The notes under the pieces were generated by a model that saw only the letters and a list, made by a program, of their open reading frames with translations, had not been told where the DNA came from and ran no database searches. This document shows positions 32,745 to 36,592 of a stretch of 64,000 nt of DNA, piece by piece. Every line of letters begins with the position of its first letter. The stretch's first letter is position 1. Location: the NCBI GenBank assembly GCA_040219235.1, contig JAVJSV010000012.1, positions 496,001 to 560,000 of the forward strand, read 5' to 3'. A program made the position numbers and the translations under genes. The DNA is from Rhodospirillaceae bacterium. GTDB lineage: Bacteria; Pseudomonadota; Alphaproteobacteria; Rhodospirillales; Rhodospirillaceae.

Positions 32745-33797
32745 TTAGGGCAATACATCCGCTAGGGCGCTCAGAATGCGCTGCGCTGTTGGTGCCGGGG
32801 CGTAATGTTCAATGGCCCAAGTTCGTCCAGCTTTAGCTATATTAGGCCACTCCGCACGACGTTCCCAAATCGCATCAGCTGACTCAGATAAGTCCGAGAG
32901 GTCTAAGGGGATATAATGGGTCCATGCCTTGGGCGTGATTGGCAGATTAAAACTGTACTTCTCAAAATCGAGATGGATGGGGATGCACCCGCAGGATAGG
33001 GCCTCCCAAAACCGCCAACTGTCCCACCTCAATACGGCTGCCGTTTCAATATGTTCGAAGGTGTGTTGTGCGAACAGAGTTGGCTGATGATTCTTAAACC
33101 AATGATTACCCATGATCGGACTGTAAAACTCGCCGCCATAGGCCAGGCACAGGGCTGTATTTTCCAGAGTCTTTATGTAGCGCGCCGGCGGCGCATTGAG
33201 CTTAGTGACCGGGATGCTCTTTGATAACACTGGCGTAAAGGCTAATTCCAATAGCGCCCGCACACCTTGGTGCAGGGTTGGGCGAAAGCTGTCGAGCACC
33301 ACTTGATCGCGTTGGCCGGTCGGAAGAACATTCTTGGATGTATCGCATAGATGTTTAGGCAACCCGAAGGCGATTGGAATGCGCTGACCCGGTTTCACGG
33401 CAGCTGTGCTGTCATGGGCGACAAATACAATATGAGGGTTGGGCACCTCACTGAAAATACTGATGTCACTGGTGGTGATGTAAGCCACGGGCGCTGGCTC
33501 AACGCCTTCAAAGGTAATGAAGGTATTATGCGCTGAAATATCCACCAAATAAGCTGAGAACCCGGTAAGCGGTTCCGCGTGAATGGTTGAGAGATCAAAG
33601 TCTTTCAAAGGCGCGGAGGCCGGGCGTGACGTAACCTGTGTCGCATTGGTCTTTACGCCAATGCCGAGGTCCAACAAGCCCTCAATCAAGCAGCCCGAGA
33701 AATGCGTCAGCGTTTGATCTGGAGCATGAATATAAAGGCCACGTGAAAACAAAGATTTAAGATCAGTGTTAGGCATGTCACATTTTTGAGATTGCAT
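32745..33797 (-). CDS. Exostosin/GT47-like glycosyltransferase
   Basis: Protein of 350 aa. The C-terminal half contains LRWDSWRFWEALSCGCIPIH (about 255–274), the nucleotide-sugar-binding signature of exostosin-type GT-B glycosyltransferases (R-F-x-E-A-L-x-x-G-x-I-P-V/I). The N-terminal half has alternating strands and helices that fit a GT-B acceptor domain. No signal peptide is seen. A second ATG lies seven codons in (33776); neither has a good ribosome site. It is isolated between the NSS transporter and the divergent MoaD-like gene; acceptor and donor unknown. Confidence 0.6.
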   Translation of the reverse strand: MQSQKCDMPNTDLKSLFSRGLYIHAPDQTLTHFSGCLIEGLLDLGIGVKTNATQVTSRPASAPLKDFDLSTIHAEPLTGFSAYLVDISAHNTFITFEGVEPAPVAYITTSDISIFSEVPNPHIVFVAHDSTAAVKPGQRIPIAFGLPKHLCDTSKNVLPTGQRDQVVLDSFRPTLHQGVRALLELAFTPVLSKSIPVTKLNAPPARYIKTLENTALCLAYGGEFYSPIMGNHWFKNHQPTLFAQHTFEHIETAAVLRWDSWRFWEALSCGCIPIHLDFEKYSFNLPITPKAWTHYIPLDLSDLSESADAIWERRAEWPNIAKAGRTWAIEHYAPAPTAQRILSALADVLP

Positions 33798-33858: not shown

Positions 33859-34134
33859 ATGGCTGTGGTGCATTTTACAGCACATCTGAGCACTGTCGCC
33901 CCACCTGATCCGCTGCAGGTGGGCGGAGGAACGGTGCGCCAAGTGCTTGAGTGCGTATGGCGCTCCCATCAAAAACTCAAAGGGTATGTGCTTGATGATC
34001 AAGAGCGGGTGCGCAAGCATATCGCCATTTTCATTGACGGCACTTTAGTTCGTGGACAGGCGGCGTTGGATTGTCCCGTTGGGGCCTCAACAGAAATTCA
34101 TGTTCTCCAAGCGTTGTCCGGTGGGTGTTTGTAG
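33859..34134 (+). CDS. MoaD/ThiS-like ubiquitin-fold protein with a C-terminal Cys-Leu after Gly-Gly
   Basis: Protein of 91 aa with the beta-grasp pattern: strand MAVVHFTAHL, a helix after TVRQVLECVW, then KHIAIFIDGTLVRG and the closing strand TEIHVLQALSGG. Sulfur-carrier proteins of this fold end in Gly-Gly, whose C-terminal carboxylate is adenylated. Here the Gly-Gly (88–89) is followed by Cys-Leu and then TAG, so it would need trimming before activation, or the terminal Cys itself may matter. No E1 (MoeB/ThiF), moaE or thiG gene is in the window. The beta-propeller gene starts 18 bp downstream on the same strand, so this is a two-gene operon. Confidence 0.75.
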   Translation: MAVVHFTAHLSTVAPPDPLQVGGGTVRQVLECVWRSHQKLKGYVLDDQERVRKHIAIFIDGTLVRGQAALDCPVGASTEIHVLQALSGGCL

Positions 34135-34152
34135 CAGGCGAAAGGGGCGATC

Positions 34153-35229
34153 ATGAACAACCGAATGTTTGCGGCCACCCGAAAAGGACTCATTGAGTAT
34201 ACGCGTCAAGACAATCTGTGGACTCACCGTTGTACGCATTTTTTGGGCGAGCCTGTGACCAATGTTCTGCACGATGCGCGGGATGGCACGCTGTACGCTG
34301 CTTTGGATCTGGGACATTTCGGCGTCAAATTACATAGATCGCAGGACGCAGGGGCGACGTGGCAAGAGCTCGAGCCGCCGAAATATCCCAAAAGCGATTG
34401 CCCTGATGCCCCGGCCTTGTCGTTGCTTTGGACTCTGGAAGCTGGCGGACCAGATCAACCCGGCCGGCTTTGGGCCGGAACTCTGCCAGGGGGGCTCTTT
34501 CGGTCCGATGATCACGGCGAAACCTGGGTTCTCAACGAGAGCTTATGGAACCGGCCCGAGCGGGAGAAGTGGTTTGGCGGCGGCATGGATGAGCCGGGGA
34601 TCCATTCCATTTGTGTGGACCCGCGTAACAGCTGGCGCGTTGCAATTGCCGTGTCTTGTGGAGGTGTGTGGGTCACAGAGGATGATGGCGAATCGTGGCG
34701 GATCGGATCGCACGGCTTGCGTGCGGAATATGTGCCGCCCGAAGCAGAGTTTGATCCGGTGACGCAAGACCCGCACATCATGGTCCAATGTCTCAGTGCT
34801 CCGGATGTCTACTGGATTCAACATCACAACGGGATTTTTAAATGTGAAGATAACTTAGAATCCTGGACCGAAATCACAGATTTCGCGGTTTCAAAATTTG
34901 GGTTTACCGTTGCTGTCCACCCTGAAAACCCGGACATCGCCTGGTTTGCACCTGCGGTTAAAGACTCAGCGCGGTATCCGGTCGATGGCAAAGTGGTCGT
35001 CACACGCACCAAAGACGGCGGCAAATCTTTCGAAGTGATTCGCGATGGACTGCCGCAAGATCAAGCCTTTGATTTGGTGTATCGTCATGGCCTGGCTGTC
35101 AATGATACGGGTACGCAGTTGCTTATGGGTTCAACCACCGGCTCACTGTGGAGTAGCGATAGTTCAGGGAATAGTTGGGTGCTGGTAAGCGCCCACCTGC
35201 CGCCAGTCTATGCGGTTAAGTTTGCGTAG
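34153..35229 (+). CDS. BNR/sialidase-like beta-propeller protein
   Basis: Protein of 358 aa with no signal peptide. Asp-box (BNR) motifs of the form S-x-D-x-G-x-T/S-W are repeated: SQDAGATW (about 63–70), SDDHGETW (about 118–125), TEDDGESW (about 176–183), TKDGGKSF (about 286–293) and SSDSSGNSW near 335. This is a sialidase/VPS10-like propeller. True sialidase catalytic residues (Arg triad, Tyr/Glu pair) are not evident, so calling it a glycosidase is unsafe. It has AGGGG 5–6 bp before the ATG and follows the MoaD-like gene. The 3' end overlaps the convergent GPH symporter by 14 bp. Confidence 0.8.
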   Translation: MNNRMFAATRKGLIEYTRQDNLWTHRCTHFLGEPVTNVLHDARDGTLYAALDLGHFGVKLHRSQDAGATWQELEPPKYPKSDCPDAPALSLLWTLEAGGPDQPGRLWAGTLPGGLFRSDDHGETWVLNESLWNRPEREKWFGGGMDEPGIHSICVDPRNSWRVAIAVSCGGVWVTEDDGESWRIGSHGLRAEYVPPEAEFDPVTQDPHIMVQCLSAPDVYWIQHHNGIFKCEDNLESWTEITDFAVSKFGFTVAVHPENPDIAWFAPAVKDSARYPVDGKVVVTRTKDGGKSFEVIRDGLPQDQAFDLVYRHGLAVNDTGTQLLMGSTTGSLWSSDSSGNSWVLVSAHLPPVYAVKFA

Positions 35230-36592
35230 TTGTTGAGGGTGAAATTGGAGCATCAATTTTATCCCGGTCTAACGAATACTGCGACAAACAAAGACAACTC
35301 AGAACCAGCGTTACGGCCGGAACCAGCATCGCGATATCAATGGCCATCAGGGCTTGCGCGGATTGCGCTGCCTGCTGACCGCCTTGAGACTCAACCCATC
35401 CCATAAGACCCAGCAGCAAACCAAGAACGGCTGGACCAAAGGCAAAAGAGAATTTCTCAATGGTCGTGTAGACACCCGCAAATATGCCTTCGCGACGGAG
35501 GCCGGTACGGCGAAAATCATGTTCAATCGTATCGGGCAATAGCGATTGCCCGATCAATAACAAGCCGCCTGCACCTATGCCCGTAATGACAGCACGTAGT
35601 GCTATATACCAGTGAGGATCTGCTGCTGCGCCAAACACCCAGGAGGCAGAAGCGAGCGCGAAAATCGTTGATGTGAAGTAGTAGCAGTTGGTCTTGCCAA
35701 ATTTTTTACTGAGTGCAACCCAAAAAGGCTGCGAGGCGATGGTTGCGCCCGCCTGGAACAAATAATACGTCCCAAGATCCGCGTAAGTTACGCCCAGAAT
35801 GCGTGTGAACAGAAGCGGTAACGCCGCGATAAAAATTGAGAATCCGAACAGCTGGGTAAACTTGACCATAAGTAAAACGACGAAAGGTTTGTTGCCAGCC
35901 GCCAGTTTGATTTGATCGCGCAGGGAATGACTATGATCTGTTGTGTGTTCAGTGAATTTGGCATCATGAGTCGACCAGAAACAGATCGTGCACACCGCAA
36001 TAACCGCAATGCCGACAACGACTGACATCACCGAATGGCCAAGCAGCCCACCGCCATAATACGCGATGACGGCCGGGCCGAGCACGGAGGACAATAACTG
36101 CCCTCCAGCGATTGCACCGACTCTGAAAGACATCAAGGATGTCCGTTCATCATAGCTGCTGGTCATTTCTGCGGGCATGGCCAGATAGGGAACATTGAAT
36201 ACGGTATAAGCGGTCGCATTCAGAAGTAGGGCAACAAACACATAGAGAAGAAGTGTGTTCTGAGACTCAAAAGCGGGGACAGTGAAAATCATCATGAACG
36301 ACAATCCGGCCAATATACCTCCGAGCATCAGGTATGGCCGCCGTCGACCCCACCGGCTTTTGGTGCGGTCGCTTAAAACGCCCATTAAAGGGTCTGTCAC
36401 GGCGTCATAAATTTTCGACACCAATATCAAAGCACCTGCTGTCACCGCGGGAATGCCAACGAATTCTATCAGGAAGGTCAACAGCAACAGACTGACCGCA
36501 TTGAACATGGCCGACATGGATAGACTGCCAAGCCCCCAACCGAGTCTCAAACGCAATGGCATAGAATTGGCAGCGATTGGGGCGTCAGTCAT
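35216..36592 (-). CDS. GPH-family (MelB-type) sugar/cation symporter
   Basis: Protein of 458 aa with about 12 spans. GPH signatures are present: GWGLGSLSMSAMFNA in span 1, the KIYDAVTDPLMGVLSDRTKSRWGRRRPYL block (about 60–88) with the Asp cation site and the basic cytoplasmic loop, and GGLLLIGQSLLPDTIEHD (about 343–360) in the second half. It should take up a glycoside, pentoside or hexuronide with H+ or Na+. It is convergent with the propeller gene and 152 bp divergent from the amidohydrolase, with which it might share a substrate. Confidence 0.9.
   Translation of the reverse strand: MTDAPIAANSMPLRLRLGWGLGSLSMSAMFNAVSLLLLTFLIEFVGIPAVTAGALILVSKIYDAVTDPLMGVLSDRTKSRWGRRRPYLMLGGILAGLSFMMIFTVPAFESQNTLLLYVFVALLLNATAYTVFNVPYLAMPAEMTSSYDERTSLMSFRVGAIAGGQLLSSVLGPAVIAYYGGGLLGHSVMSVVVGIAVIAVCTICFWSTHDAKFTEHTTDHSHSLRDQIKLAAGNKPFVVLLMVKFTQLFGFSIFIAALPLLFTRILGVTYADLGTYYLFQAGATIASQPFWVALSKKFGKTNCYYFTSTIFALASASWVFGAAADPHWYIALRAVITGIGAGGLLLIGQSLLPDTIEHDFRRTGLRREGIFAGVYTTIEKFSFAFGPAVLGLLLGLMGWVESQGGQQAAQSAQALMAIDIAMLVPAVTLVLSCLCLSQYSLDRDKIDAPISPSTTTQT

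Follow-up and report, generated by a model that had tools for sequence, protein, structure and literature searches.

The locus examined here raises the question of why a small protein resembling the sulfur carriers MoaD and ThiS is encoded directly ahead of an Asp-box (BNR) propeller, and whether the two residues that follow its Gly-Gly motif have any bearing on its function. Sulfur carriers and ubiquitin-like proteins have a common origin. To our knowledge, the partner has been established for only a few of the bacterial sulfur carriers and ubiquitin-like proteins that act outside cofactor synthesis. The window, which denotes the whole stretch of DNA analyzed, is 64 kb in length (C12:496001–560000, forward strand). 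The two genes and their signals occupy the following positions within it.

33859..34134, + strand: MoaD/ThiS/SAMP1-like beta-grasp carrier, 91 aa; ORF with a sub-cut-off SAMP1 match (40.6 bits) and a beta-grasp-like order of strands and helix in the fused model
34120..34125, + strand: GGT GGG, codons of the carrier's C-terminal Gly-Gly; G88 and G89 invariant in 34/34 sequences
34126..34131, + strand: TGT TTG, codons of the Cys-Leu tail, read directly; probably a lost TGA-type stop
34132–34134, + strand: TAG, stop codon of the carrier gene, read directly
34141..34147, + strand: AAAGGGG, read directly; likely ribosome-binding site of the propeller gene
34153..35229, + strand: seven-bladed Asp-box (BNR) propeller, 358 aa; ORF with AF2, Foldseek, and phmmer evidence

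The carrier ends in LQALSGGCL (...GGT GGG TGT TTG TAG in the window sequence), and the propeller ORF begins 18 nt past the carrier stop, on the same strand and in the same frame. An earlier note on this DNA had described a MoaD-like ORF ending in LSGGCL followed by a propeller ORF, and its coordinates and frames were exact. The upstream neighbor (32745–33797) is oriented opposite to the pair and divergent from it, and the downstream neighbor (35216–36592) is convergent with it, such that the operon is limited to these two genes. The upstream neighbor (− strand, 350 aa) has no Pfam or NCBIfam match and by eye recalls exostosin-type glycosyltransferases. A promoter and terminator scan gave no signal exceeding that of shuffled sequences. 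Genome profile searches found no E1, molybdopterin, or thiamin gene in the window, in agreement with what the earlier note had said of the neighborhood. For both the carrier and the propeller, no PADLOC defence family was matched at E ≤ 0.01, and neither protein matched the phage collection. A defence or phage origin of the pair was thus dropped.

The association between the two genes extends far beyond this genome. In a class sample of 385 genomes, the propeller is present in 58 and this MoaD type in 53, and the MoaD adjoins a propeller in 52 of the 53 genomes that have it. For 51 of these, the coordinates place the genes side by side on the same strand with a gap of at most 259 nt; in the 52nd (G227), the propeller missed the limit of the propeller search and the pairing was recognized by inspection. 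One genome (G220) has a second, partial match at the end of another contig. By coordinates, the MoaD gene lies before the propeller in 28 genomes and after it in 23, the former in one branch and the latter in another, and these two gene orders argue against merely inherited adjacency. The sole MoaD without a propeller, in G051, is a different carrier, as indicated by its weaker match (55 bits) and its operon with ThiF-rhodanese, TfuA, and YcaO genes, which we take to be a sulfur-transfer setting. This protein ends in ALAGG, and its neighborhood (L246:2567–6781) is likely a thioamide-forming cluster. The propeller without MoaD was found in seven genomes of the class sample. Three are contig-end cases (G075, G226, and G315), and in the other four (G117, G122, G222, and G252) the contig context is intact and no MoaD of this type is present anywhere in the genome. 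Given these four genomes, and with the reverse unseen except in G051, the dependence is one-sided, of the carrier on the propeller.

The family sample of 73 genomes gave a similar picture: MoaD was found in 22 and the propeller in 24, and all 22 MoaD-bearing genomes share the propeller, adjacent by coordinates. The two additional propellers are a fragment (G444) and a copy that is 32% identical and contains a stop (G448). Broken or fragmentary propeller genes are also seen in the relatives G426, G427, and G443, in addition to G444, which hints at frequent loss of the cassette, and within the genus the pair is present in two of the seven genomes. A collection of named genomes contains at least 554 relatives. 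Of the best 80 of these loci, 79 have a MoaD gene in front of the propeller in the same orientation, and in the 80th the contig starts 353 bases before the propeller. The record titles among the matches listed include several classes of Proteobacteria, Planctomycetota, Acidobacteria, Verrucomicrobia, Nitrospiria, and Anaeromyxobacter, although such titles can be wrong for metagenome assemblies. All ten plasmid records with MoaD have it adjoining a propeller match, and Cupriavidus metallidurans CH34 is one organism with the pair. More distant propellers are encoded on plasmids of Rhodobacterales and on one from Streptomyces; for these, neither the annotation nor a search for short ORFs whose products end in GG revealed an adjacent MoaD. 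On the plasmid of Rhodobacter sp. CZR27 (L204:83–3610), a MoaD-less propeller adjoins the ergothioneine-synthesis genes egtB and egtD in divergent orientation. An ergothioneine link was considered and dropped, since two other MoaD-less propellers sit elsewhere. Taken together, the carrier and propeller genes are same-strand neighbors that are gained and lost jointly, which bears out the earlier note's unchecked belief that similar neighbors occur in other bacteria.

Several further features concern the relationship between the two genes. Among 110 distinct pairs of the upstream type (L032–L197), the Gly-Gly codons spell GGAGG in 36 of the 42 pairs in which the propeller start lies within 12 nt of them, in comparison with only 8 of the 67 pairs with gaps of 13–500 nt; GGA makes up 7% of the carrier's other Gly codons. 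These codon patterns suggest that, at close gaps, the end of the carrier gene also provides the ribosome-binding site for the propeller gene. Carrier and propeller distances co-vary (r = 0.81 for 128 pairs, largest shuffle 0.12; r = 0.51 for the 105 upstream-type pairs, largest shuffle 0.11), which is weak evidence given that host relatedness is uncontrolled. No natural fusion of the two proteins was seen among the loci read. Apart from the pair itself and its fragments, no third gene was found beside the pair in more than 4 of 54 loci, in a scan of ORFs of at least 100 aa with greedy picking that under-counts even the propeller and misses small genes. Accordingly, no pathway is pointed to by the neighborhood.

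The carrier scores below the curated cut-offs when the window protein is taken alone, with 18.6 bits against Pfam ThiS (cut-off 22.5) and 40.6 bits against the NCBIfam SAMP1 model (NF041918; cut-off 60). All 34 members of the carrier family match Pfam ThiS at E ≤ 1 (best 6e-12) and SAMP1 at E ≤ 0.01, and 29 match the archaeal MoaD model (TIGR01687), pointing to a divergent but real beta-grasp family. The start Met, D46, R52, G88, and G89 are invariant in these 34 sequences. The QALSGG end is invariant across 27 aligned carrier-propeller pairs and is found in 122 of 146 loci when duplicates are counted.

For the residues beyond Gly-Gly, we surveyed 138 distinct carriers (loci L032–L085 and L099–L197, window excluded). 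Among these, 129 end exactly in Gly-Gly (with 72 TGA, 30 TAA, and 27 TAG stop codons), eight have other tails, and one lacks the Gly-Gly end owing to a frame change, suggesting that a free carrier C-terminus matters. The eight tails are mutually unlike, namely DN, NTA, MRCRTGFL, one type of 17 residues shared by three related loci, and tails of 24 and 65 residues. Among aligned relatives, Cys directly follows Gly-Gly otherwise only in L144, which has the 65-residue tail. In the one same-genus relative with the pair (G450, locus L179), whose propeller is 76% identical to that of the window, the carrier stops at Gly-Gly (GGC GGA TAA). At five tailed loci (L060, L061, L084, L103, and L117), the Gly-Gly codons spell GGAGG shortly before the next start; the tails there accompany a tight gene join, whereas that of the window does not. 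A calculation of dN/dS against the same-genus relative gave saturated synonymous sites. Judging from these comparisons, the Cys-Leu tail is probably a recent stop-codon loss, a mutation in a single genome. A change from TGA to TGT would produce exactly this tail, and a one-base sequencing error could be an alternative source. The tail as a family trait is rejected given the 129 exact ends and the tail-less same-genus relative. The proposal that Cys serves as a thiol carrier likewise fails as a family feature, given the near absence of this Cys. In other words, when the C-termini of propeller-adjacent MoaD proteins were compared, the neighborhood held and the extra residues did not; of the two outcomes that the earlier note had named as counting against it, the tail does appear as a single change, whereas the absence of a conserved neighborhood was not observed.

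The propeller combines Asp-box repeats with a propeller fold. Its AF2 model, based on 35 sequences, has a mean pLDDT of 95.3 and a pTM of 0.93. The nearest solved fold is 3b7f, a BNR protein of Ralstonia eutropha JMP134 (YP_299179.1), which resembles the window propeller in both fold (Foldseek TM 0.91, E 4.8e-33) and sequence (phmmer E 1.9e-50). In PMC2716378, the 3b7f entry lists seven blades and five Asp-boxes with a function "not known," and the blade number given here for the window propeller is borrowed from that entry. Matches to the Asp-box pattern are located at residues 63, 118, 175, 231 (degenerate), and 286, with an irregular one at 334, such that the earlier description of five Asp-boxes is fair. 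The N-terminus has no evident signal peptide. Seven polar residues, all outside the Asp-boxes, are invariant in the 35 propellers and are presumed to line a pocket.

34183..34185, + strand: Lys11, presumed pocket; 35/35, codon checked
34654..34656, + strand: Ser168, presumed pocket; 35/35, codon checked
34774..34776, + strand: His208, presumed pocket; 35/35, codon checked
34819..34827, + strand: Gln223 and His225 (QHH motif), presumed pocket; 35/35 each, codons checked
34972..34974, + strand: Arg274, presumed pocket; 35/35, codon checked
35083..35085, + strand: Arg311, presumed pocket; 35/35, codon checked

Judged by the strand order and the Asp-box positions, these seven residues would all lie on a single face of the propeller around its channel, in turns that connect strands 2 and 3 or where the first strand begins. 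The set is also intact in the MoaD-less propellers L054 and L055 of the same alignment, which suggests that the pocket has a function independent of the carrier, and the existence of MoaD-less propellers indicates that the carrier can be dispensable.

The explanation that we favor, tentatively and at slightly short of an even chance, is that a cytosolic carrier activated by a MoeB encoded elsewhere serves the propeller as its dedicated partner. The pair would then be a self-contained cytosolic cassette of a MoaD/SAMP1-type carrier and its own propeller. The carrier Gly-Gly would be adenylated and thiocarboxylated by an ordinary housekeeping E1 of the MoeB type, the loaded carrier would dock on the propeller, and the conserved face of the propeller may hold an anionic small-molecule acceptor to which the sulfur is passed. 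In the window copy, the Cys-Leu tail would either be trimmed by a chromosomal JAMM protease or leave the copy working poorly. The genome encodes a MoeB on another contig that scores above the NCBIfam cut-off for the MoeB subfamily (306.4 vs. 266 bits). The best ThiF-family match lies on contig C11, with only a sub-cut-off match (22.5 bits) elsewhere on C12, and ThiS-family matches lie on contigs C11 and C4. The MoeB, MoaD-MoaE, ThiS-ThiG, and JAMM genes are all on other contigs or far from the pair. One 328-aa ORF of the same genome (L201:2976–3959) has ThiS fused to what by eye appears to be ThiG. The search for an E1 in the same genomes, as the earlier note had proposed, was positive for all 18 cassette genomes searched; however, 12 of 14 control genomes also have one, and its presence says little given this near-universal distribution. 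That note had also proposed predicting a complex. The AF2 model of the fused carrier and propeller (pTM 0.76) has pLDDT below 50 at residues 86–99, with the tail disordered, and no confident interface, an outcome that speaks against a simple, tightly bound complex, although the short linker and the mere 27 alignment rows may explain the absent docking.

Other explanations assign the pair a different role. The main one, more novel but in our view unlikely, is that the carrier is a ubiquitin-like modifier attached in the manner of SAMPs via MoeB, and that the propeller reads the modifier or its free Gly-Gly, or picks targets. The nearest curated models of the carrier are indeed SAMP1 (34/34 members) and archaeal MoaD (29/34), the genome's MoeB scores 310 bits against the SAMP-activating E1 model (cut-off 450), and its JAMM protein scores 60.9 bits against the desampylase model (cut-off 130), but matches below the cut-off do not establish membership. 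After 3b7f, the Foldseek neighbors of the propeller are GH74 enzymes, DAIP, Ycf48 with D1 peptide, and sortilin, of which the last two would suit a reader of protein tails. Sortilin is an Asp-box propeller that binds protein tails or peptides. In PMC10403576, the D1 tail is described as wrapping around the Ycf48 propeller. Against such a reader, propellers that lack a MoaD retain the pocket residues, which hence need not read a carrier tail, the fused model shows no docking, and the pair has no linked gene for a target or for an E2-like or RING-like protein. Far less probable, to the point of being barely tenable, is that the database names are right and the propeller acts as a sialidase or another glycosidase, with MoaD as an unrelated passenger. 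Plasmid records carry the annotations "exo-alpha-sialidase" or "sialidase family protein," and GH74 enzymes follow 3b7f in the Foldseek results; however, none of the alignment columns holds a conserved Tyr or Glu in at least 80% of the 35 propellers and no RIP-like motif ([FYW]R[IVL]P) was found in the window protein, in line with the earlier remark that sialidase catalytic residues are not evident. The absence of an evident signal peptide, a sub-cut-off score against the F510_1955 "glycosylhydrolase" model (56.9 vs. 175 bits), the near-obligate linkage to the carrier, and the function of 3b7f given as "not known" in PMC2716378 also argue against a glycosidase.

Two further explanations concern the tail. 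PMC6006322 describes capped carriers that bear MV or C after Gly-Gly and a protease, QbsD, that removes the cap, and the window tail could by analogy be a true precursor cap, with a JAMM protease trimming Cys-Leu to expose Gly-Gly and control activation as for QbsE and PtmS2. The genome does encode a 140-aa JAMM protein (Pfam 65.3 bits vs. cut-off 25) with an HxHP-x6-SxxD motif, HSHPNGCSEPSKID; the Prok-JAB matches lie on contig C16 and, below the cut-off, on C3, with none in the window. In the first 18 pair-bearing genomes, JAMM exceeded the cut-off in 4 of the 5 with a tail and in 7 of the 13 without. However, among 18 further pair-bearing family members the corresponding counts were 1 of 2 and 15 of 16, which gives 5 of 7 vs. 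22 of 29 for the 36 genomes pooled, and JAMM was over the cut-off in all 18 family genomes without the pair. The conserved protease that the earlier note had asked about is thus present but unassociated with the tail, and a JAMM-tail association was rejected on these counts. One tail-bearer (G264, 100% complete) has no JAMM, and its propeller gene has an internal stop. With 129 of 138 homologs and the same-genus relative being tail-less, tails sharing no sequence outside one lineage, and the JAMM gene unlinked to the pair, a cap is improbable. A somewhat better, though still low, probability is given to the tail marking a decaying copy, in which the stop was lost under relaxed selection and the carrier is no longer activatable. 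Internal propeller stops at two of the eight other tailed loci (L084; L117 = L194), the patchy cassette (24/73 in the family, with broken copies in G443, G427, G444, and G426), and the pair being in only two of seven same-genus genomes are consistent with decay. On the other hand, the window propeller is full length with every invariant residue present, the carrier is intact up to Gly-Gly, the propeller is unbroken at the other six of the eight tail-bearing loci, and a one-base sequencing error could also create the tail.

A comparison with known systems helps to place the favored reading, that of a carrier with a dedicated propeller partner. In the CysO/Mec/CysM, MoaD/MoaE, and ThiS/ThiG systems, a carrier is combined with a dedicated acceptor and the E1 acts in trans; the acceptors are enzymes of folds other than the propeller. 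The window genome also has separate MoaD-MoaE and ThiS-ThiG genes, apart from the carrier-propeller pair. With SAMP1 and the archaeal MoaD modifiers (NF041918 and TIGR01687), the window carrier has in common its length, the beta-grasp signature, and the C-terminal Gly-Gly that is common to the carrier family; unlike them, it is bacterial, tied to a propeller, carries the family end QALSGG, and scores below the curated cut-offs where shown. With the capped carriers QbsE, PtmS2, and PtmS3 and their JAMM proteins QbsD and PtmS1 (PMC6006322), it has in common one or two residues past Gly-Gly and a JAMM encoded in the genome; it differs in that the tail is limited to one genome among the relatives seen, the JAMM is unlinked and shows no association with tails, and there is no biosynthetic cluster. 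Ycf48 and sortilin are Asp-box propellers like the window protein and bind protein tails or peptides, but they are secreted or lumenal, have other conserved residues, and mostly give TM values of about 0.5 or less. A published description of a MoaD-propeller pair was not found in open papers. The accessible text of PMC1779556 mentions no propeller, sialidase, BNR, or glycosidase, and that of PMC1949818 has one mention that looks unrelated. The individual parts are of known kinds and are already named side by side in annotated sequence databases, whereas their fixed association, a Gly-Gly carrier beside an Asp-box propeller, was not found in the open literature.

It is possible, though doubtful, that the pair is an undescribed two-gene system in which the carrier hands sulfur, or itself, to the propeller, using the housekeeping MoeB and, for removal, the desampylase-like JAMM. 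If true, this would be the first Asp-box propeller dedicated to a protein whose C-terminus is Gly-Gly, either as its receptor or as its acceptor enzyme. Moreover, 3b7f, a solved structure without a function, now has a nearly obligate partner whose Gly-Gly end is activatable, and the pairing makes the role of the propeller directly testable.
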